The notes under the pieces are model-generated. The model was given only the letters and a program-made list of their open reading frames with translations, made no database searches and had not been told where the DNA came from. DNA of 22,335 nucleotides, taken from the IMG/VR virus record IMGVR_UViG_3300005617_000378, positions 1-22,335 of that record, one strand, 5' to 3'. This DNA comes from a virus. A program made the position numbers and the translations under genes. Below, in pieces: positions 5,892 through 15,652 of this stretch (positions are counted from its first letter, which is position 1; every line of letters starts with the position of its first letter).

Positions 5892-7273
5892 TACTGCACG
5901 CGCCAGCCGTCAGGAAGGCCGGTGAGGTTGATGTAGGTGACGCCGTTGATGACCTTGGTCTGTCCCTTCGGGATCGGCGTCGGGGCGACATCCACCGGAC
6001 GCGTGCCCTGAGTGTTCCCGATGTTCGTCATCGACTGACCCGCAGCACCGACCTGATCGCGGATCGCATTCTTGCGGAACTCGAACTCGGTATTGAGCCG
6101 GTTAACCACGCGCTTGATCTGCGCGGCGTTCATGTTGCCGCCGATTATTTCCTGCATCTCATGACGCGCGGAGTCGGACAGGATGCCGGTGAGGTTCGGG
6201 TTGTTGATGATGCGCGCGGCTTCCGTCTGATACTGCGCGAGTACCGATTGGAACTCCGCCTGATCTGGGTCGCCAACCGCTTTCTGCGCGCGGCGCGCAT
6301 AGCCTTCGAGTACCGGGATTCCCGTGTTATCGATCTTGTCGACGAGGTCGAGCAGTCGCTGACCATTGAACTTCGCGGTCTGTTCGTAGGCTTCGATCGC
6401 ATTCAGCTGCGGAACGAGCTTGTTGATGCTGCCCGCCTGCGCCTTGAACGACGCGCGCATGTTGCCGAGGTCGGCTGGGTTCATCCCGGCGTCTTTCAGC
6501 TTCTTGGCCACCGCGGAGTTGATCTGGTCCCGGCGCGCCTGACCGGCCTTCCCGAAGCTTGCGAACTGACGCATCTGGTTCGGGTCCGTCATGACGGTGG
6601 TCGCAGCGAGGTCGAGATCTTCCGGCGAGAGATCATCGCCAACCGACTGAACCGCGCTCTTCTGCTTCAGGTAATCGAGGTACGTCCCCTTAAACCCCTG
6701 CGACTGCGCGAGCTTGTAGCCCTGAATCTCTGAAGAGTCGGCCGGCGTTTTCTTCTGCGCAACCCAGTCGGAGTAGGTGCCCTTGAACCCCTGTTTCTTG
6801 GCGTACTCGTACTCGCGCACATCGGTAGGCGTATCCGATGCCTTATCCACTCGCACGAGTTTGGAGTAGTCCGGCGTTCCGCTTGCTACGGATTTTTGAA
6901 ATTCGGCAACCGACTCCGGCGTGTAATCTGACGGCGTCACATTCCCAATGGCGGAAGGCTTTGCCTGCAGGGCTTTCAACTGCGCTGCGATGAGCTGCTG
7001 CTTCAGTTGCTGCTCCTGAGCGCCGGCTGCCATCTGCTGGGCGTTCAGCGCGCTCTGCGCAAAGATCTGACCGAAATTGCGCGGGGTGGTCGAGTAGCCT
7101 GAGTTGGCGAGCAACTGCAGGCCGAGGTTTCCAGCGCCTCCGAACTTGTCGAACTGGCTGAGTACGCCAGCAAGCTTGTTTTGCGGAGGCAGAGCACCGA
7201 CCGGACGCTGTGTGATGACGACCGGATCGATCTGATCGTCATTGCTGCCAGTGAGGAAGTCGAGGAGCCCCAT
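5891..7273 (-). CDS. Predicted internal virion protein with duplicated YxxAxxQGFKGTY motif
   Basis: This 460-residue protein starts at the ATG at 7273 (MGLLDFL), two bases after the previous stop (TGACATG). A longer upstream reading overlaps the previous gene and is less likely. An apolar/Gln-rich helical region covers about 45-105. Two copies of a motif with core QGFKGTY sit at about 155-175 and 186-206; this type of short repeat is seen in phage virion proteins. Residues 230-430 are predicted helical with a conserved-looking stretch around RIINNPNLTGILSDSARHE. The C-terminus ends in an ITYINLTGLPDGW-like segment. Together with its neighbours it probably forms the internal core or injection apparatus. 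No enzymatic motif is recognised. Confidence 0.75.
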   Translation of the reverse strand: MGLLDFLTGSNDDQIDPVVITQRPVGALPPQNKLAGVLSQFDKFGGAGNLGLQLLANSGYSTTPRNFGQIFAQSALNAQQMAAGAQEQQLKQQLIAAQLKALQAKPSAIGNVTPSDYTPESVAEFQKSVASGTPDYSKLVRVDKASDTPTDVREYEYAKKQGFKGTYSDWVAQKKTPADSSEIQGYKLAQSQGFKGTYLDYLKQKSAVQSVGDDLSPEDLDLAATTVMTDPNQMRQFASFGKAGQARRDQINSAVAKKLKDAGMNPADLGNMRASFKAQAGSINKLVPQLNAIEAYEQTAKFNGQRLLDLVDKIDNTGIPVLEGYARRAQKAVGDPDQAEFQSVLAQYQTEAARIINNPNLTGILSDSARHEMQEIIGGNMNAAQIKRVVNRLNTEFEFRKNAIRDQVGAAGQSMTNIGNTQGTRPVDVAPTPIPKGQTKVINGVTYINLTGLPDGWRVQ

Positions 7274-7274
7274 G

Positions 7275-8021
7275 TCAGCCTCCGTATGCGCCCAAGAGAC
7301 CGCCGCCGATTGCACCCAGCCATCCGGCCCATGGCGAACTTGATCCACCCAGAGACGAGCCGAGCTGCGCGCCAGCCAGCGCTCCTCCAGCGATCGCGGC
7401 GCCAGTGTTTCGATACAGCGGTGAGGTTGTCGTAGATCCCGCGGGGATTGCCCCCACCTGACCGAGGTACTGATTCAGGGCGTTGGCAGGTTGCGCGGCG
7501 TATTCCTGCGCTAGTCCCTCGACCGATTGCCCTGCGCCTCGCAACTGGGCAAGGTCAACATAGTCCTGATTGGCAAGCGGAATCGCCTGACCGACTGCCT
7601 GCTGCTGCAGGCCGCGCTCGAACTGGTAGTTACCGCCGTAAATCTTCGTAGCCAAGTCGTTCAGCTGCTGCGAACGCAGGCCCTGCGAAGCGTCGACGTT
7701 ACGGCCCGCCCCCGCGAACTGGCTCGCGAGTTGATTCTGCGTGGCGAGCGCTGCCTGGTTAAATGTGTCGGTGAGGTACGGATTGCTCCCGAGAAAACCA
7801 CCCTGCAGCGACTTCGTGACGTAGTCATTGGCCGCATTGACGACCGGCGAGCCGTTCTGCGCGCGCGTTGCCGTGCCCTGAATGGCCTGTTCGCTGTAGG
7901 GCGAGAACGGCACAATCGGCGTGCCGCCGTTCTGATACAGGTCCTGCGCCTGACCGAGCCCGTACTGAAGATACGGAAGTTGCCATGCCGGAGGACCACT
8001 GGTGACTGTCTGGGTAGCCAT
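7275..8021 (-). CDS. Predicted virion (internal/ejection) protein with Gly/Ala-rich C-terminus
   Basis: This 248-residue protein has a polar Gln/Asn/Gly-rich body (1-190), with the stretch QQAVGQAIPLANQDYVDLAQ in the middle. A final 45-residue Gly/Ala/Leu-rich segment has small-residue zipper character (AGAQLGSSLGG, IGGGLLGAYGG) and could insert in a membrane. The ATG has GAGGAAAGGAA directly upstream, a strong Shine-Dalgarno. Similar proteins with a C-terminal Gly-rich apolar tail sit next to ejection proteins in many podophages and are usually annotated hypothetical. A role in forming a trans-envelope channel is inference. The stop lies one base before the next gene's ATG. Confidence 0.75.
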   Translation of the reverse strand: MATQTVTSGPPAWQLPYLQYGLGQAQDLYQNGGTPIVPFSPYSEQAIQGTATRAQNGSPVVNAANDYVTKSLQGGFLGSNPYLTDTFNQAALATQNQLASQFAGAGRNVDASQGLRSQQLNDLATKIYGGNYQFERGLQQQAVGQAIPLANQDYVDLAQLRGAGQSVEGLAQEYAAQPANALNQYLGQVGAIPAGSTTTSPLYRNTGAAIAGGALAGAQLGSSLGGSSSPWAGWLGAIGGGLLGAYGG

Positions 8022-8030
8022 TTCCTTTCC

Positions 8031-8840
8031 TCACCCTCCGAAAATCGACGTGAGAGTGTCGTTGTACTTCTGCTCCCACCCAGACTGATCGCCATCCGGA
8101 TGGAAGACCGCGCCGTACCAGGTGCCGGAAAGCTCATCGAGCTGCTTCTGAGTGACGACGCGATTGTTGAACTGCTCCGGCAGCACGTAATTGCCGTCCT
8201 TGTTGACGGTTGTGCCGGGAAATGTCTGGTTGAAGGCGTTCCAGTTGCGCTTCTTCGAGCCGCCACTATGGAAAAGGCTCGATGGATCGAGCACCGTGCC
8301 AAGCACAGAGTTCGACTTGATGCCAGCTTTCGACGCGAGTGATGCGGCAGGGTTAGATGCAAGGCGTGCGAGGTCCTGCTGCTTCCATGCATCGTCCATC
8401 GTCTTGCCACCGAACCCTGAGGCGGAGATCGGGTTAGCATCCTTCACACCACCAGCGGCTCCGTAGCCCAGCGCGCCACCGATAATGGCGCCGGGCCAGC
8501 CCCCGATCTTGAGCCCGGTAAGCGCTCCACTACTAGCGCTGGAGAAACGCTGGTTATCCTCGCCGCCGAGGATGCCATTCTGGCCCATCAGGCCTTTCTG
8601 CACGCCTTGGCTGCCATCCGATCCGGGTGCGAATGCAGGGCCGCCATAAAGCGGTCGCCCTGGTCCGGGTCTCCATCCCGCACCACCTGCAAGGCCCGCG
8701 GCCTGCTGCGAGAGTGCGCCGGGCGCCTGATTCATGAATCCGAGGATGGCCGGCGATTGAGGTGAGCCCACGAGACTCCCCGGTGCCTGCTCGGGAATCG
8801 TCACGCGCGGATCATTCGCCCACCATTGCAGGACACCCAT
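8031..8840 (-). CDS. Predicted virion protein with Gly-rich membrane-like segment
   Basis: This 269-residue protein has an N-terminal Pro/Gly/Gln-rich half (1-90), a Gly/Ala/Ile-rich apolar stretch at about 108-132 (IGGWPGAIIGGALGYGAAGG) and a more ordinary globular C-terminal half. That half contains a Trp/Asn-rich region and the segment YVLPEQFNNRVVTQKQLDEL. I chose the ATG at 8840, which overlaps the upstream stop as TGATG; a GTG one codon earlier is possible. The low-complexity N-terminus and the glycine zipper resemble those of the next gene, so the two may work together in the internal virion or ejection machinery. No family is recognised with certainty. Confidence 0.7.
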   Translation of the reverse strand: MGVLQWWANDPRVTIPEQAPGSLVGSPQSPAILGFMNQAPGALSQQAAGLAGGAGWRPGPGRPLYGGPAFAPGSDGSQGVQKGLMGQNGILGGEDNQRFSSASSGALTGLKIGGWPGAIIGGALGYGAAGGVKDANPISASGFGGKTMDDAWKQQDLARLASNPAASLASKAGIKSNSVLGTVLDPSSLFHSGGSKKRNWNAFNQTFPGTTVNKDGNYVLPEQFNNRVVTQKQLDELSGTWYGAVFHPDGDQSGWEQKYNDTLTSIFGG

Positions 8841-10291
8841 CACATGCCTCCTGTGGGCGTGGCGTCGATCTCGAGCCCCTGCGCCTTGTCGAAGTTGCCC
8901 GCGATATAGACACGCGCACGATGAAACCGAGCGTCGCTACGAAAGTCGGCAAAGCCTGTGCGCGAGGTCGGCGTGGTCGTGCTCGAATAGGAAACTGTCG
9001 TCGCCTGATCGTCACGGCTGCCGACCTGAACGCCGATCGTTGGCGCGGTTCCGCTGCTTGCGATCACGGGCTTGATGCCGTTGATCAGGGCGCATCCACC
9101 GGGTTGCGGCTCAACCTCTCCGCTGGAGATGAGCGCTATTCCTGCGGCCCCATTGAAAAAACCCATTACATTGAGCGTAGAGAAAGCTTGGATTCCCGGG
9201 CTGTTGGGTTGATAGCTGATTGGCCCGCTTTCAACGAAGCACGTGAGAGTTTGCGATGCGTGCGTGAACCGTTTCTCGAGCACGTGATACACCAAAAGGT
9301 GATCTACGTAGCCGCCACTCGCCGCGCTCGATGATGTCGAAATGCCCCAATAGATGAGGTTTTTAAGCTGGTCCACACCTGTTCTGACAAAGCTATTTCC
9401 AGTGTAGAACAGCGCCGCGAGGTAATTGTTGGTCTTATTTTCTCCGATCGGCTGAACCGTCACGCCGTCCGTCGCGAAGACACCTTGCCTGTTGATGAAG
9501 TAGACAATGTTGCCGAACTTTATGGAGCTTCCGGTGTAAAGCGCGCCGATCCCTTCGGCGATCCGGTCAAATTGAAACACCGCAGGAGGGCCGACATAGG
9601 TCATGCGTGTCACGGCCATCTGCTGGAGAATGATCCCGAATTGATCCCCGCCGTGCAGCCCTCTCACGGACCCAAAGTTGGCGTCGAGAAACTGCCTGCC
9701 TGATTGAGTCGCGATAGCGGTGGCACTGGACGGTGTTGGCCATGCCCCTGTTGGATCCCCGATTGGACCCCACTGAACTGCCGCCTCACTGCCGGGGAAC
9801 GTTCCGCCCAGATTCCCTGTCAGGTTCCCCAGAACGACGAATTGCCCCACTACCGCAAGCTCGCCTGCGTAAGGCGAGCTTGCCACGGCAACCATCGTTC
9901 CACCGGTAGACAGGGAGGATGCGGTCCCGTAGTAGAGATTTGTGGTATCCCTGATGGCCAGGGCATATCCCTGGTATTGCGAAAATCGCCATGGGTATGT
10001 GGCGCTACCAACAGTCGCTGTGACCGGTAATGCTACCCATGAAGCACCGTTGTTAGCGGACGCATAGAACCCAGCAGTGACGCCAACAAGCGGAGTTCCT
10101 ATGCCATTCGTGTATGCGCGATATGCTCCTGTCACTTGAGCCGGAACCGTAGCTCCAGATGGATTCAGCGGCAGGAACGGCGCATAGCCGCCTGGAACTG
10201 GAACAACATTCAGCGCTTCTGTGAGTCCTGGATTGCCGAGATCCGGCAGATCCGGCAGCCATTCGCCAAAGCTGAATGCCGTGATGCTCAC
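8840..10291 (-). CDS. Large beta-rich tail (nozzle/hub-like) structural protein
   Basis: This 483-residue protein begins at GTG 10291 (GTGA overlap with the adaptor stop). The N-terminal motif FGEWLPDLPDLGNPGLTEALN at about 7-27, with many short Gly/Ser/Thr beta-repeats after it (for example YAGELAVVGQFVVLGN, RQFLDANFGSVRGLHGGD, IVYFINRQGVFATDG), suggests a beta-propeller-like fold. Following the head-tail adaptor directly, it is most likely the tail-tube or nozzle protein, functionally similar to P22 gp10. The order portal, capsid, adaptor, nozzle is seen in SU10-like and P22-like podophages. Assignment is from order and fold impression, not from a diagnostic motif. Confidence 0.75.
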   Translation of the reverse strand: MSITAFSFGEWLPDLPDLGNPGLTEALNVVPVPGGYAPFLPLNPSGATVPAQVTGAYRAYTNGIGTPLVGVTAGFYASANNGASWVALPVTATVGSATYPWRFSQYQGYALAIRDTTNLYYGTASSLSTGGTMVAVASSPYAGELAVVGQFVVLGNLTGNLGGTFPGSEAAVQWGPIGDPTGAWPTPSSATAIATQSGRQFLDANFGSVRGLHGGDQFGIILQQMAVTRMTYVGPPAVFQFDRIAEGIGALYTGSSIKFGNIVYFINRQGVFATDGVTVQPIGENKTNNYLAALFYTGNSFVRTGVDQLKNLIYWGISTSSSAASGGYVDHLLVYHVLEKRFTHASQTLTCFVESGPISYQPNSPGIQAFSTLNVMGFFNGAAGIALISSGEVEPQPGGCALINGIKPVIASSGTAPTIGVQVGSRDDQATTVSYSSTTTPTSRTGFADFRSDARFHRARVYIAGNFDKAQGLEIDATPTGGM

Positions 10292-10920
10292 GCGACGAGC
10301 ACCTGCATCGCCCCGCCGCTGAACTTCTGCGCCTTCATGAGATCGCGATAGTCGTTCAACGCGGTGTTATAGAACTGCTGCCAGATTGGGATGCGGTTGT
10401 CGTCCTTGAGGAAGGGCACGGCTTCGAGCAGCGCTCCGTACAACAAGAGGTCCGGTGCGTTCACGATGAGAAAGTGCGCGGCGGCATCGCTTGCGAAATT
10501 GCGCAAGAGAACGGGTTTTGCGTAGTAAGTGCCGTTCAGCGTGAAGGTGCCATTGGGCGCCGGACCGAATACAAAGCTCGTGCCGTTGGCGGCGATCCAG
10601 GCGGGAATGCCCGACGCGGCCGCGCGCGGGTACTTCGCGAGCAGCTGCTCAAGGCTCGAATTGATGAGTGGCTGACCCGTCTGGCCGTTGAGGTAGGCGA
10701 CTCGCAGCGCGAGGAAATCGGTTGGGATGGTCGCCGTGGAGCTGAAGGACACTGAGAGAGCGCTATTCTCCATCCAGCGGCCGTAGTTCCTCGGCTGCCG
10801 ATAGAAGCGCTCCTCGAAGTTCTGGATGAACGCTGGAATGAAGCTCGTGAGGTTCGACTTCGCCAGCCAGTCGCCGACCGAGGTCTGCAGAGAGGTGTAT
10901 CCGCTGATCACGCCACTCAT
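10288..10920 (-). CDS. Head-tail adaptor protein (SU10-like)
   Basis: This 210-residue protein would bind the portal from below and connect it to the tail nozzle. The sequence starts with the typical helix YTSLQTSVGDWLAKSNLTSFIPAFI (about 8-32), then ERFYRQPRNYGR, a region with TIPTDFLALRVAYLNG (about 64-79) and the motif YYAKPVLL at about 131-138. A C-terminal helical segment contains DLLLYGALLEAVPFLKDD (about 156-173). This arrangement matches phage adaptor proteins of the SU10 type, consistent with the SU10-type capsid. The ATG overlaps the methyltransferase stop as ATGA, showing that the modification genes and tail genes are one coupled run. Confidence 0.85.
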   Translation of the reverse strand: MSGVISGYTSLQTSVGDWLAKSNLTSFIPAFIQNFEERFYRQPRNYGRWMENSALSVSFSSTATIPTDFLALRVAYLNGQTGQPLINSSLEQLLAKYPRAAASGIPAWIAANGTSFVFGPAPNGTFTLNGTYYAKPVLLRNFASDAAAHFLIVNAPDLLLYGALLEAVPFLKDDNRIPIWQQFYNTALNDYRDLMKAQKFSGGAMQVLVA

Positions 10921-11453
10921 GAGGCCACCTCGATTAGGGGTCTGGCGTACACCACGACGAACGCGTTGTATTCATCCATCTTCTGCATGAGCTGCAAGTC
11001 GAAGCGCTCCCAGATCTTAGGTAGCCACCACTCGATTGGCTGCTGAATCAGGTGCGCGTTGCGCCCATCCGGCAGCACCTTTTTGGCCGGCGCGCTGCAG
11101 ATGCTGAAGATCCCGACTTCGAGTGTCAGTCGCTGAAGGTCGTCGAGCACATCGTCCAAGCAATCGGGCTCGACATGCTCCAGCACATCGATACACGCCA
11201 CCATCTGGTTCGGGATAGGGCGCGCCGAATACTCGGGGATCGCAGGATCGTAGGCCTGCAAGGTCATTTGGTGATCGACCTTCAGATTCGCGAACAGCTT
11301 GCATTTCGCGCAGCCGTAGTCGAGCAGGCTCGTGATCTCGAGCTTGTTGCAGTACATGGATACGATCGGCGCATACGTCAGTGACGCCGTGCCGTAGTCG
11401 TACCGGTCGTGCATCTGCTGCTGCTGCTCGCGGTAGGCTTCACTAAGCAGCAT
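10917..11453 (-). CDS. Class I SAM-dependent methyltransferase-like protein
   Basis: This 178-residue protein starts at ATG 11453, just upstream of and overlapping the 3' end of the glycosyltransferase gene; upstream extension is entirely overlap. Motif I reads LLDYGCAKCKL at about 43-53, then an acidic residue after the second strand (YDP, D69) and motif IV CIDVLEHVEPD at about 87-97. That is the Rossmann-fold methyltransferase pattern. The C-terminal half has NAHLIQQPIEWW at about 132-143. The third Gly position of motif I is Cys, and the second is Ala, compared with the usual GCGKG-like consensus, so cofactor binding may be altered. It is the last gene of the sugar block and could methylate a sugar or protein. 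The target is unknown. Confidence 0.8.
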   Translation of the reverse strand: MLLSEAYREQQQQMHDRYDYGTASLTYAPIVSMYCNKLEITSLLDYGCAKCKLFANLKVDHQMTLQAYDPAIPEYSARPIPNQMVACIDVLEHVEPDCLDDVLDDLQRLTLEVGIFSICSAPAKKVLPDGRNAHLIQQPIEWWLPKIWERFDLQLMQKMDEYNAFVVVYARPLIEVAS

Positions 11454-12066
11454 GGGCCACCTGCAACCAGTCCTTGCGCTTGCCCTTGTAGTGCCACACG
11501 AGTGCATCGGACGTGTCTGAAGGCGCGCCGGGCGACCAGTTATAGCGCTGTACGTCGAGATCGTGAACGAGCCAGTGTCCGCGGCGCGCGGTGAGCCCCA
11601 CGGCCATCTGATCGCCCCACCATCGCTGGAAGCGATGCGGGAGATTGCGGGCCACCATTGCGGCGCGCTCCCAGAAGTCCTGCGAGCGCGAGAACATGAC
11701 GCCCGTGTTGTACGGGCAGCTCTCTGTCATGTTGATCTTCTCGTAATACACCGGGCCCGTTCGCAAGGTGAGGGCCACATCGAAAACATGGCCAAATACA
11801 TGGGACAGATCGCCCTTTACGAGGCAGTCGTCATCGAGGATGAGCATCGTCTCGTGCGGGAAGTCCGCGAGGTGATCTAGCCGAAAGGTCATCATCCGGC
11901 CGTCGTAAGGCTTACGTATCACCTCATCGACGATCGCATCAGTATCGGGATCGCTCATCTGTACGATCCGGGCGTTCGGCACGTGCTCGCGCACGCTTGC
12001 CACCATGAGCTTTGCCCACGGCCTGTCATTGCCCACCAGCACAAATGAGACGACCTCAGGAGGCAT
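11443..12066 (-). CDS. Predicted GT-A-type glycosyltransferase (DDD motif)
   Basis: This 207-residue protein starts at ATG 12066, overlapping the upstream gene by 11 bases. An ATG ten codons earlier is the alternative. The N-terminus has a first beta-strand VSFVLVGNDRPW (6-17) and the metal/nucleotide-sugar motif LILDDDCLV, with DDD at 78-80, preceded by Arg62 in MTFRLDHL. Later elements are PYNTGVMFSR (about 125-134), WGDQMAVGL and WHYKGKRKDW near the C-terminus. This is the layout of small nucleotide-diphospho-sugar transferases (GT-A fold). Donor and acceptor sugars cannot be inferred. Being next to another GT-A gene suggests sequential sugar additions. It is compact compared with typical 250-300-residue enzymes. 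Confidence 0.8.
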   Translation of the reverse strand: MPPEVVSFVLVGNDRPWAKLMVASVREHVPNARIVQMSDPDTDAIVDEVIRKPYDGRMMTFRLDHLADFPHETMLILDDDCLVKGDLSHVFGHVFDVALTLRTGPVYYEKINMTESCPYNTGVMFSRSQDFWERAAMVARNLPHRFQRWWGDQMAVGLTARRGHWLVHDLDVQRYNWSPGAPSDTSDALVWHYKGKRKDWLQVAHAA

Positions 12067-12718
12067 TCTTGAGGCGCTCAATCGTTCGCTTCGCATGCAC
12101 GCTATTGCCCATGAGCTCCTGCCACCGCACCGTGGAGTTCATGATCTTGTGCTCACGCTCCCAGTGCGCGTCCTCTGGTGCGCCCTTGGTCTCGTTCCAC
12201 ACCGGAAGTCCTTCGGTGTAGTGGAAAAGCTTGCCGTCCGGGTTCGGATCGGAGTACCGAACACAACAATTCCATTCCTTCGGGAAGCTGCCGATGCCGT
12301 GGTCTGCCCATTTCATGTCGAACATGGCGTTCGAGGTGTCCTCGATATACGCAGGCGTCAGCATTTCGCAGTTGGAGCAGTTGAAGAGCATGGCTGATGC
12401 CCATTCGAACTCAGGCTGCGCCTTGTTGACCTGAACCGACGCTTTTGTGTCGAGCAGGTAGAAGAGCTCGGCGATGTCTCCCCGCACCACCATGTCGGCG
12501 TCGAGGAAGAGCGCCGGGCCGCGGAAGCCGCACAGGTATGGCACCAGGAACCGCGAATAGGTGAACTCAGTGAGTCCGCGGCGCTTCAGTGGCAACTGAC
12601 GCAGCACGAGCGGCGTGATGCTCACGGGCAGCGAACTGTGACGGTAGATGCTCGAGGCGAGCACACTGAATCCGACAGGCTGCCGAGGGTCGACACCGAT
12701 GAAGATGCGCAGACTCAT
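12056..12718 (-). CDS. GT8-like glycosyltransferase (DAD motif)
   Basis: This 220-residue protein begins MSLRIFIGVDPRQP, typical of a GT-A sugar transferase that binds a nucleotide-sugar in its N-terminal strand. FTYSRFLVPYLCGFRGPAL at about 52-70 is followed by FLDADMVVRGD, with the DxD motif at 73-75. The C-terminal FHYTEGLPVW resembles the HxxGxxKPW-type motif of GT8 enzymes that helps coordinate the metal. The ATG overlaps the TPR-glycosyltransferase stop as ATGA. The length is short for GT8, but the key elements are present. A role in building a glycan on a virion component with its two neighbours is inferred from context, and acceptor specificity is unknown. Confidence 0.88.
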   Translation of the reverse strand: MSLRIFIGVDPRQPVGFSVLASSIYRHSSLPVSITPLVLRQLPLKRRGLTEFTYSRFLVPYLCGFRGPALFLDADMVVRGDIAELFYLLDTKASVQVNKAQPEFEWASAMLFNCSNCEMLTPAYIEDTSNAMFDMKWADHGIGSFPKEWNCCVRYSDPNPDGKLFHYTEGLPVWNETKGAPEDAHWEREHKIMNSTVRWQELMGNSVHAKRTIERLKNAS

Positions 12719-14094
12719 GCGGCCGCCTTTTCACAGAAGAAGCCTTTCACATGGGCCGTGGTCTCACGAATCGTCTGGTCCCACGAGCCGAAGCTATCGA
12801 CGATCTCGACGTTGGGGTGGAACGCGAGGCCCTTGGCGAATTTCCAGCATGGTTTCGGCGACTGCATCGCGTAGCACGGCGTGCCGAGCGCGCCGGCGAG
12901 ATGCACTACCGCAGTCGGCACACTTACAACCAGGTCGAGCGCGGCGACGAGTGATGCTATGTCGTCGTAGTCCTGCGTGAGCGTCGCGTGCGGGTACTGC
13001 ACAAGGTCGATCTCGGGATGCTTCGCGCGGAAGGCGTCGATCTCGGTCTGCGAGTCCTTGTATTGCAGGCTCACCCAATGGGCATCCACCGACTGGAAGA
13101 GCGGCAGGAGCGCATCGAGCGTGCATTGACGGAACTTCGATCCCGTATGCCACAGTCCACCAGTCCAGCCGATGCCGATGATCGGCTTGCGCTTCGTGGC
13201 AAAGAGCGAGCGCCACATCAGCACGCGATCGGCGTCCGCCTTCAGGTATGGCTCCGAGGGGAACTCATCTTCGCTCAGGCGCAAGTATTCGCCGGCCTGG
13301 CTCATGGGCAGCGAGGCATCGATCCGGATACCCGGGTCCCATCGCTGATCGCGCAGGCCGTAGACATCCACGCCCGGGAACGAGCGCTTGAAGAGCCGCG
13401 CAAGGCGCCGGTCGACGTTCAGGATGAGCTTGTCGCAGCGAGCCGCGGCATCATTGACCATCGACGCGAAACACACCTCATCGCCAATTCCCTGATCGCC
13501 GTACAGGAGCACCGTCTGCCCCGGCGCGCCCTCCCACAGCGGCTCTTCAGGATCGTTGTAGATCTGGCGAACCCGCTCTTCTGTGCCGATGAGATGGCGG
13601 TAGTTCTTCCAGCCATTCACCCAGTCGTGACGGGCGAGCTGGCACATGCCGAGGTTGGCGAGAAACTTCGGGTCGTCGGGCTCGATCTCCAGTGCCTTCA
13701 TGAGCATCGGTTCTGCTTCATCGAAGCGGCCGGCGTCCATGTAGATCGAGGCGAGATTCTGGTAGAGCGCCGCGCGATCGTTCGGCAGCTTGGCAACCGA
13801 CAGTCCTTGCTTGGCGGCGCGCTCGCCCTCTTTCTCCCGCTGCATGAACTTGCAGGCCTGAACCATGTTGATCCAGGCCGCAGGATCGCGCGGGATGAGT
13901 TCGCTGAGGCGACGGGCGTAGAGATAGGCAAGCGGGAAGTTGCGCACGCGAACATTGAGAAAGCCCGCGACGATGATCGCCTGCGGGTCCTCTGGATCAT
14001 CGAGCAGGTAACGCTCGATGATGGGCCACGCTTCGCCCGGCCGATTGGCCTCGATGAGCGAGCGCGCCTTCTGCAGGTCATCAGCCTTTGCCAA
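12715..14094 (-). CDS. TPR protein with GT-B (GT9/GT41-like) glycosyltransferase domain
   Basis: This 459-residue protein starts at TTG 14094, chosen because AAGGAG sits seven bases upstream. It overlaps the previous gene by 14 bases. Residues 1-165 form tetratricopeptide repeats, the clearest being AALYQNLASIYMDAGRFDEA at about 108-127. Residues 190-430 resemble the catalytic region of TPR-linked glycosyltransferases. These hold LLYGDQGIGDEVCFASMV at 196-213, a central strand IIGIGWTGG (305-313), VSLQYKD (341-347) and DLVVSVPTAVVHLAGALG at 387-404. In related bacterial enzymes the TPR part binds the protein acceptor, suggesting a virion protein as target, which remains inference. Substitutions from the SPINDLY/OGT consensus make the activity unproven. 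Confidence 0.85.
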   Translation of the reverse strand: MAKADDLQKARSLIEANRPGEAWPIIERYLLDDPEDPQAIIVAGFLNVRVRNFPLAYLYARRLSELIPRDPAAWINMVQACKFMQREKEGERAAKQGLSVAKLPNDRAALYQNLASIYMDAGRFDEAEPMLMKALEIEPDDPKFLANLGMCQLARHDWVNGWKNYRHLIGTEERVRQIYNDPEEPLWEGAPGQTVLLYGDQGIGDEVCFASMVNDAAARCDKLILNVDRRLARLFKRSFPGVDVYGLRDQRWDPGIRIDASLPMSQAGEYLRLSEDEFPSEPYLKADADRVLMWRSLFATKRKPIIGIGWTGGLWHTGSKFRQCTLDALLPLFQSVDAHWVSLQYKDSQTEIDAFRAKHPEIDLVQYPHATLTQDYDDIASLVAALDLVVSVPTAVVHLAGALGTPCYAMQSPKPCWKFAKGLAFHPNVEIVDSFGSWDQTIRETTAHVKGFFCEKAAA

Positions 14095-14431
14095 GGTAGA
14101 TCTCCTTGACCTTCCCGCCGTGGTTCTTTTCGGTCACCTTGAGCCACGGATAGTGGGTGTTGATCTCGGCGCACAGACGCGGGAAGTCGTTCGCCTTGAA
14201 GATGTCGATGCCCTTGTTGAGCAGTTCGAGCTGTACCGTCGTCGGTATCGAGCAGTAGTGCCAGAACCCGGCCTTGATGCCTGGGTCCATGAGTCCGTTG
14301 TCCCGAAGCATCTTCGTGCGCTCGAGCAGCGGCTCGATGTCCTGCTTGTAATGGATATCGAGCCGACCCGTTTCAGGGTCGTAGTCCATGTCGTTCCGAA
14401 CGCCTGTGGTTGGATCGTAGGACAGGAACAT
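14081..14431 (-). CDS. Conserved-looking small phage protein, unknown function
   Basis: This 116-residue protein begins MFLSYDPTTGVRNDMDYDPETGRLDIHY and continues with a helical region QDIEPLLERTKMLRDNGLMD (about 30-49). A Trp/His/Cys-bearing turn (GFWHYCSIP) and a basic C-terminus (KVKEIYLGKG) complete it. The ATG directly abuts the TGA of the 53-residue gene before it, and its 3' end overlaps the start of the glycosyltransferase. The sequence looks well folded and not low-complexity. Proteins of this size are common in podophage head regions, but I cannot name a function. It could be a small capsid-associated or accessory assembly protein. It has no TM or signal peptide. Confidence 0.8.
   Translation of the reverse strand: MFLSYDPTTGVRNDMDYDPETGRLDIHYKQDIEPLLERTKMLRDNGLMDPGIKAGFWHYCSIPTTVQLELLNKGIDIFKANDFPRLCAEINTHYPWLKVTEKNHGGKVKEIYLGKG
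14102..14107 (-). promoter_or_regulatory. Shine-Dalgarno AAGGAG deciding the TTG start of the TPR-glycosyltransferase
   Basis: On the minus strand AAGGAG is followed by seven bases and then TTG at 14094. No in-frame ATG lies nearby, so this near-consensus site sets the start of the gene. It lies inside the 3' end of the previous gene. Confidence 0.7.
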
Positions 14432-14593
14432 TCAGCACTTCCCCGTCATCTTGTGCATCTTGCCGACACCCAGATTGCCGATCGCGCTGTGCATGCCCGG
14501 TAGCTTCGGAAGTGCAGCGGGATTGGGATGCGTGGGCTTGGATGGCGAGCTGAGCTTCATGCTCGGCGCCGCGGTGTGAGACTTCTTGCCCAT
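14432..14593 (-). CDS. 53-residue basic Pro/Lys-rich small protein
   Basis: The frame runs from ATG 14593, preceded by GGAG, to TGA at 14434-14432, which abuts the next ATG. The peptide is rich in Lys, Pro, Ser and Met (MGKKSHTAAPSMKLSSPSKP in the first 20 residues, then LPKLPGMH and KMHKMTGKC), with one Cys at the C-terminus. Its position between the capsid terminator-like hairpin and the next gene, with a good Shine-Dalgarno and no overlap conflict, supports a real gene. It could be a small capsid-binding or DNA-binding protein, but the family is not recognised. Confidence 0.6.
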   Translation of the reverse strand: MGKKSHTAAPSMKLSSPSKPTHPNPAALPKLPGMHSAIGNLGVGKMHKMTGKC

Positions 14594-14601
14594 GACTTCT
14601 C

Positions 14602-14631
14602 CAAAGAAATGGGGGCGAAAGCCGCCCCCAT
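14602..14631 (-). terminator. Terminator-like hairpin after the major capsid gene
   Basis: A perfect 9-bp GC-rich stem (14609-14617 paired with 14623-14631) with a 5-base loop lies seven bases after the capsid stop codon. On the minus strand it is followed by TTCTTT. This is the pattern of a weak intrinsic terminator. Because minus-strand genes continue downstream without an obvious new promoter, it is more likely a partial terminator that lowers expression of later genes relative to the capsid, or a 3' stabiliser of the capsid mRNA. Confidence 0.65.
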
Positions 14632-14638
14632 GGGGTGG

Positions 14639-15652
14639 TTAGCCGTTAACTGCAACGACCTTGGACGAGGCCTTCCAGTTGCGCGCCTCGAGGCCGCCTT
14701 CCCAGATCACCTGATATTTCTCGCCGTCACCGGTCTTTGCGAGCTGTCGCTTCTGGAAGCCGCGCAACTGGGCGATAGACCAGTAGTCGGGGTCCAGACA
14801 CAGCACGACCGAGGAGCGCATGTAGCGATGCAGGATCACCTGATGCACGCCGTAGTCGGACACGTACACGTTCGCAGCACCCACGATGCTTGCCTGTGCC
14901 GACTTGTTCACATCCACGAATCGCGTCGCGATGCCGGTGATGTTGTCGATCGCGACCTTGCCGATGGTGTTCGTCAGGATGACGCGCGGGTTACCGCCCG
15001 CCGTCCATGAGCCACACAGCGCCATGTCGAGCGCGGTCTTCGTGAGCGCACCGAGCGTCGAGCCGTCCGTCGGCGCCGTACCTGCAGCACCCGAGGTCAC
15101 CGCAGGAGTCGTCGTCGTGTTGGCCGTTGTGGTGGAGCGCACCGCGTTGGACGAGCCACCGGTCGAGGGGTCTGCCGTCACACCGCCGATCCAGCTTTCC
15201 ATGCCCGCGGTCGAGCGGCCGGTACCGGCGCCACCGACGGTCGAGATCTGGTTCTGCGTGAGCGCCTGCTCGATGTCGCGCTTCAACTCGCGCATCTTCA
15301 CGACCATGACACGCGCGGCTTCCTTCGCGCGGCCCGCACGGTTGGTCGCTTCGAGCGAGTCGGAGATCAGGAAAGTCTTCGAGGCGATCTGCGTGTATGT
15401 GCCGTACCGGGCAGGAGCCGCCGCCGCCGCGAACGAGGCATCGTCACCTTCGATCTGGATGTTGGCCGCGGGAGCTGCCAGCTGCTGGCCGAGCCACTCG
15501 TGGAACGTCGACGTGGCATCCGTCTTGTCGAGATTCGTGAGCGCCCAGGTGTCCTCCGGGAAAAGGTCCCAGATTTTGTCTTCCAGATCCTCACGGATAC
15601 CGCCGGCGGTACCGATGTTGTAGGTCTGGGTCGTATTCGTCAGAACAGTCAT
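14639..15652 (-). CDS. Major capsid protein, SU10-type HK97-fold
   Basis: This 337-residue capsid protein carries the family's N-terminal signature GIREDLEDKIWDLFPEDTWAL (about 18-38), followed by a Trp/Gly motif (STFHEWLGQQL, 48-58) and IEGDDASF (67-74). A long spine-like helical segment SDSLEATNRAGRAKEAARVM runs to RDIEQAL (97-131). The C-terminal half has VILTNTIGKVAIDN (224-237) and ends GLEARNWKASSKVVAVNG. Between about 163 and 199 is a Ser/Thr-rich stretch (see findings). It follows the scaffold by nine bases, with a GAGGAAAGG Shine-Dalgarno. No separate protease gene is visible. The family match is by recognised motif pattern (SU10 major head protein, DUF5309-like). Confidence 0.93.
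   Translation of the reverse strand: MTVLTNTTQTYNIGTAGGIREDLEDKIWDLFPEDTWALTNLDKTDATSTFHEWLGQQLAAPAANIQIEGDDASFAAAAAPARYGTYTQIASKTFLISDSLEATNRAGRAKEAARVMVVKMRELKRDIEQALTQNQISTVGGAGTGRSTAGMESWIGGVTADPSTGGSSNAVRSTTTANTTTTPAVTSGAAGTAPTDGSTLGALTKTALDMALCGSWTAGGNPRVILTNTIGKVAIDNITGIATRFVDVNKSAQASIVGAANVYVSDYGVHQVILHRYMRSSVVLCLDPDYWSIAQLRGFQKRQLAKTGDGEKYQVIWEGGLEARNWKASSKVVAVNG

Follow-up and report, generated by a model that had tools for sequence, protein, structure and literature searches.

Gene content of the block

The window analysed here is a stretch of 22,335 nucleotides of viral DNA (positions 1 to 22,335 of IMG/VR record IMGVR_UViG_3300005617_000378). It carries, on the minus strand, the late operon of an SU10-capsid podophage, in the order terminase, portal, scaffold, major capsid protein (MCP), a small capsid-adjacent gene (HC), a block of four genes at 10917-14094, SU10-type adaptor and tail genes. 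The four-gene block is the subject of this work. Its first gene (12715..14094) encodes a predicted protein glycosyltransferase, TPR-GT, with a superhelix of tetratricopeptide repeats (TPR) at about residues 1-168 and a GT-B glycosyltransferase (GT) domain at about residues 188-459. It is followed by a GT8-type GT-A glycosyltransferase that is predicted to extend a glycan (12056..12718), a second, GT8-like GT-A glycosyltransferase (11443..12066), and a class I methyltransferase (MT) dependent on S-adenosylmethionine (10917..11453). The original prediction for this DNA had named these four genes, and all of them are found where it placed them, on the minus strand between HC and the adaptor.

The listed open reading frames of the third and fourth genes begin too early, at 12096 and 11507; conserved internal ATG codons at 12066 and 11453 are their likely starts. 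With these starts, the overlaps of 11 nt between the GT8 gene and the third gene, and again between the third gene and the MT gene, complete a chain that includes HC/TPR-GT (14 nt), TPR-GT/GT8 (4 nt, ATGA) and MT/adaptor (4 nt, ATGA), so that the ATGA-type or short overlaps described earlier are confirmed at 4-14 nt. Compared with the nearest relative (L001), dN/dS is 0.10 for TPR-GT, 0.15 for the GT8 and third genes and 0.135 for MT, as against 0.09-0.20 for MCP, HC and the adaptor; the four genes, like their neighbours, are thus under purifying selection. Recent acquisition was considered and rejected, the GC content of the block being 0.608 against 0.611 in the neighbouring genes, with GC3 likewise equal. 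No clear membrane segment is seen in the four proteins, and none of the kind typical of lipid-linked O-antigen enzymes; the sole strongly hydrophobic stretch, in TPR-GT, falls inside the GT-B fold.

The TPR-glycosyltransferase

TPR-GT matches TPR families of Pfam with E-values down to 7e-13 and Glyco_transf_9 (PF01075) with E = 0.006 and 17.4 bits, the Pfam cut-off being 22; no GT41 family is among the Pfam matches listed for the window protein. PF01075 is matched at E<=0.01 by 21 of 55 homologues, and a QGxGD motif is invariant in 109 of 109. The structure was modelled with AlphaFold2 from 109 homologues (pLDDT 97, pTM 0.93), and this model was used in place of an earlier, poor one from 7 sequences (pLDDT 62). 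Ten N-terminal helices form the TPR superhelix, and the C-terminal half is a GT-B domain, so the protein has the N-terminal TPR, C-terminal GT-B layout of the FlmG class (see below).

The C-terminal domain has the heptosyltransferase-type GT-B fold, with rmsd of 3.0-3.3 Å over about 255 residues to PDB structures 3tov and 1psw. In VIA-align comparisons, the GT9 enzyme 3tov scores Z = 17.6 (3.0 Å, 255 residues), WaaF (1psw) 17.2 and TibC (4rap) 16.7, and XcOGT (2vsy) covers the whole model with Z = 17.4 (357 residues, rmsd 9.7 Å). SPINDLY and O-GlcNAc transferases rank high in Foldseek. Human OGT and SPY also cover the whole model in the VIA list, at a high rmsd (14 Å), so that the similarity holds domain by domain.

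The GT-A enzymes and the methyltransferase

The protein of the GT8 gene matches PF01501 with 21.4 bits against a cut-off of 24.3 (E = 2e-4), and 42 of its 48 homologues match this family at E<=0.01, the best at 1.2e-7. Its DAD motif lies at residues 73-75; D73, D75 and H166 are invariant in the window protein and all 48 homologues. The family profile finds PDB 5gvv, annotated as 'Glycosyl transferase family 8', with E = 5e-5, and also WbbM. The second GT-A-like protein has no significant family match when searched alone. It carries DDD at residues 88-90, and both outer aspartates (D88 and D90), D162 and H202, as well as GDQ and HxKG motifs, are invariant in 14 homologues. Alignment of its profile to the GT8 family with hhalign gives a probability of 72 (E = 3e-5), and single homologues match PF03407 and PF01501 (the latter in 1 of 14). 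Judged by these matches, its assignment as GT8-like is weaker than that of the GT8 gene. It is also accessory, as only a minority of relatives have it.

The MT protein matches the methyltransferase family phrog_24759 (E = 1.5e-20), and 41 of 48 MT homologues match Methyltransf_23. Both motif I and the DVLEH motif can be recognised in the window protein (D63, G65, D107, E110 and H111 are present). The glycosyltransferase and methyltransferase assignments of the original prediction are thus borne out, and the structure and profile searches that it had proposed as a check place the TPR-GT model in the GT-B fold (with GT9, TibC and XcOGT) and the GT8 and MT proteins in their families by profiles.

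The MT family occurs elsewhere near structural or other glycosyltransferase genes, namely in Caulobacter jumbo phages, Roseobacter phage CRP-9, Tetraselmis viridis virus S20 and phage DSL-LC06 (L011, L012, L013 and L014). A search of the block against cultured phages at the DNA level gave a sole match, of 143 bases, to the methyltransferase of Caulobacter phage CcrSC.

Distribution of the block among phages

All 87 dereplicated loci that contain both MCP and adaptor genes have HC and then TPR-GT between them; GT8 is found in 78 of the 87 and the same MT in 76. The order of GT8 and MT varies. These loci were largely fetched using the block proteins, which biases the figure, and a less biased survey of IMG/VR was anchored on MCP instead of the block. 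In this survey, TPR-GT lies between HC and the adaptor in 25 of 25 phages with MCP identity of at least 45% (MT in 24 of 25), in 8 of 26 at 40-45%, and in none of 13 below 40%, where HC is mostly retained and the interval is mostly 350-1500 bp long. In a tree of 138 MCP sequences, one split (SH-aLRT 98) separates the phages with the block from those without it, that is, the block has one origin (or loss) on this tree. The original prediction had suggested examining related neighbourhoods to tell a conserved block from an insertion; the MCP-anchored counts and the single split indicate that it is an old, stable, clade-wide module, neither a private insertion nor universal.

The methyltransferase is usually kept even when its family changes, since, of 11 loci lacking the usual MT, 9 have a methyltransferase of another family in the interval (FkbM type PF05050, or Methyltransf_11). 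Beside such replacement methyltransferases, four loci (L091, L159, L167 and L169) have an extra gene inside the block, encoding about 256-277 amino acids; the three copies scanned match no Pfam family. HNH-endonuclease-like genes also occur inside the block (L008, 4753-5199; L183, 6504-7004; L010, 15232-15708, the last matching PF13392). Among block-free relatives, the capsid-adaptor interval of five (L275, at 8283-8903, L276, L288, L300 and L303) contains a GT2-like glycosyltransferase gene with a weak Pfam match. In a cultured relative, Sinorhizobium phage phiM5 (L382), a GDSL/SGNH hydrolase gene occupies the interval at 6397-7707, and the protein was found in the particle proteome; the interval may therefore be a general site for virion-associated genes.

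Bacterial relatives

When bacterial genomes were scanned with the GT domain, 231 relatives were found, of which the best 80 were kept, corresponding to 76 loci, mostly from Betaproteobacteria. Two of these (L306 and L307), filed as Chloroflexota and Pyrinomonadaceae metagenome-assembled genomes, are phage pieces of the block-bearing clade (MCP-HC-TPRGT-GT8) and were removed as phage contigs. The 74 loci counted as bacterial (L308-L381) are mostly islands with several tandem TPR-GT genes, often accompanied by MT and GT8 genes of the families seen in the phages. Type IV pilin is encoded at 26 of the 74, in most cases less than 400 bp away from a TPR-GT gene. Flagellin was rejected as the principal neighbour, since it is found at only 3 of the 74 and pilin is commoner. 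Sixteen of these bacterial genomes, of 3.1-6.2 Mb, have 0-7 PF00114 pilins each, so that about 0.4 loci would be expected to contain one by chance; this figure is an estimate rather than the outcome of a formal test, and some of the loci come from one and the same genome. Judging from this gene arrangement, the tandem TPR-GT islands next to pilin genes are a possible pilin glycosylation system; no description of them was found in the limited library of literature searched.

Covariation with the major capsid protein

A TPR domain that recognises a particular virion protein would be expected to diverge in step with it. We therefore calculated, as an exploratory analysis, partial correlations between distances in the TPR domain and in MCP with other structural proteins held fixed; fibres are too divergent to be included. 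The partial r for the TPR domain and MCP is 0.43 with portal in the set (36 phages, permutation p = 0.005), 0.62 with Tail1 (43 phages, p = 0.003, permutation) and 0.63 with t3 (30 phages, p = 0.003, permutation), and the values for TPR against HC, adaptor, scaffold, portal and tail proteins do not exceed 0.12. Covariation with MCP is almost nil for GT8 and absent for MT, as expected if the first enzyme alone touches the protein.

MCP itself has a Ser/Thr-rich segment at about residues 158-200. Ser/Thr enrichment of MCP was considered as a sign of the acceptor, being higher in block-bearing phages overall (p = 1.5e-4), and was rejected for reasons given below. A test of a TTPG-like motif comprised one independent pair on the MCP tree.

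Neighbouring genes and the spacer between MCP and HC

The MCP gene, at 14639..15652, belongs to the SU10 type (PF17236, E = 1e-69). HC, at 14081..14431, occurs also in relatives without the block, and the adaptor gene at 10288..10920 (PF24175, E = 8.5e-23) is the downstream limit of the block; all three are on the minus strand. A sequence scan places a terminator-like hairpin in the MCP-HC spacer at 14609..14631, on the same strand, although hairpins are not enriched in the region (4, against 3.8 expected from shuffles). As this hairpin lies 3' of the MCP gene, the genes to which the block is coupled are HC and the adaptor, and not directly MCP. The hairpin may reduce expression of the block relative to MCP. 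The spacer (about 14432-14595) also contains a short frame of about 53 codons (MGKKSHTAAPS...), in place of which L001 has a different small ORF.

Predicted function and alternatives

We consider it fairly probable that the four genes form a cytoplasmic system for the O-glycosylation of a virion protein, with MCP as the likeliest acceptor. The argument is based on the TPR and GT-B folds of the first enzyme, the pilin- and flagellin-linked bacterial relatives, the conserved site in the head operon, the replacement of the methyltransferase by others and the covariation between the TPR domain and MCP. From families, fold, conservation, location and covariation, all of which are observed, we infer the activity, acceptor, linkage, sugar, order of steps and benefit. 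Modification would take place in the cytoplasm, either ahead of head assembly or in the course of it. The TPR superhelix would bind the acceptor, MCP, the GT-B domain of TPR-GT would move the first sugar from a host nucleotide-sugar to it in O-linkage, the GT8-type enzymes would lengthen the glycan, and the methyltransferase would cap it by methylation. The decoration of a virion protein that had been predicted for this locus is supported in this way by fold, motifs, the capsid-adaptor site, the bacterial relatives and the covariation. The description of the system as self-contained was too strong: GDP-mannose dehydratase, the only donor-synthesis family searched, was not found in 18 relatives of 34-48 kb, so the sugar donors are probably the host's. 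More tentatively, and with somewhat less than even confidence, we propose that throughout a widespread lineage of SU10-capsid podophages a FlmG-type system, such as bacteria have beside pilin and flagellin genes, with its TPR domain tuned to MCP, initiates on each capsid subunit an O-glycan that is capped by methylation.

Several observations weigh against decoration of MCP. The GT9 match of TPR-GT is below the Pfam cut-off, and, by the motif applied, 45 of the 74 bacterial loci lack both pilin and flagellin. The covariation could arise in part because MCP keeps better evolutionary time than the other proteins; the control correlations are 0.48 for portal with MCP and 0.40 for HC with MCP. At matched capsid identity, Ser/Thr enrichment no longer separates block-bearing from block-free phages, and for this reason it was not used as a sign of the acceptor. 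Position 67 of the window MT, in motif I, is Ala, in place of the Gly found in 46 of 48 homologues, so that the enzyme of this particular phage may be weak. Finally, a glycosyltransferase of the bacterial pilin type could act on host pilin instead.

This last point is the basis of a different explanation, that the phage enzymes glycosylate host pilin or flagellin late in infection and hide the receptor from released progeny or from competing phages. The nearest bacterial relatives do adjoin pilin and flagellin genes. Nevertheless, we regard the explanation as rather unlikely, since every block-bearing relative in which both flanks are present has the block within its head operon, the TPR domain tracks the phage's own MCP above the general phage phylogeny, and late expression would leave little time for remodelling pili. 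The acceptor could also be host lipopolysaccharide (LPS) or another surface polysaccharide, given that the closest folds of the GT domain include the heptosyltransferases WaaF and WaaC of the GT9 type, that GT8 enzymes act in LPS core synthesis, and that the GT8 profile also matches WbbM. Serotype-converting cassettes usually carry membrane GtrA/Gtr proteins. The block has no such membrane partners, and this, together with the TPR fusion and the location in the head operon, makes an LPS target improbable. Modification of host pilin or LPS, though possible, fits location and covariation less well than decoration of MCP.

Within the virion, the target might be a tail fibre or spike rather than MCP; fibres are exposed and could benefit, and are too divergent for the covariation test. 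The TPR domain covaries with MCP and not with Tail1 or t3, and we would give a fibre or spike only a small chance. Glycosylation of the phage DNA would agree with the frequent action of phage glycosyltransferases on hypermodified bases, a point restated in PMC12619734. Here it is very improbable: the fold is nearest to GT9 and protein O-GlcNAc transferases, and the thymidylate synthase/hydroxymethylase family was found in none of 18 relatives of 34-48 kb, other routes of base hydroxylation not having been searched.

Comparison with known systems

Glycosylation of virions and enzymes of the FlmG type are each known. Mycobacteriophages Che8, Corndog and Myrna encode glycosyltransferases that modify a capsid or tail protein of the same phage (Freeman et al. 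2023, cited from PMC12363180 and PMC12619734). These systems belong to another host group, and the cited parts of the two papers describe neither a TPR-fused enzyme nor a methyltransferase module. In the Che8-related phage Maravista, the GT genes are near the 3' end of the genome (PMC11256854). In the part of the literature covered here, direct proof of glycosylated virions is confined to a few mycobacteriophages.

Among structurally characterised proteins, TibC (4rap) and XcOGT (2vsy) have the GT-B fold in common with TPR-GT, at about 10% sequence identity to each; XcOGT has TPRs, whereas TibC, which glycosylates an autotransporter protein, lacks them.

The closest parallel, judged by domain layout, is FlmG of Caulobacter, also built of an N-terminal TPR domain and a C-terminal GT-B domain. 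Its TPR domain binds flagellins, which the protein then glycosylates; the TPR domain confers acceptor specificity, and the system is soluble, cytoplasmic and lipid-independent (PMC7591256). FlmG differs in having 596 amino acids and in acting with pseudaminic acid on flagellin (PMC7591256), whereas the phage gene is in a head operon with GT8 and MT.

The limited library searched had nothing relevant on TPR glycosyltransferases with pilin or on glycosyltransferases of SU10-type podophages, and we found no description of the two known elements combined as a core head-operon module of a podophage clade that is related to pilin-linked islands. If decoration of MCP is correct, virion glycosylation would be an inherited core feature of a large clade of uncultured podophages, and the TPR-MCP pair would offer a way to test how TPR glycosyltransferases recognise their acceptors. 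It would also connect phage capsids to the bacterial protein-glycosylation toolkit beside type IV pilin genes. Those bacterial islands that adjoin the gene of a surface-filament subunit (pilA or fliC) consist of the same families, and differ from the phage block in their several tandem TPR-GT genes and in the absence of virion genes.

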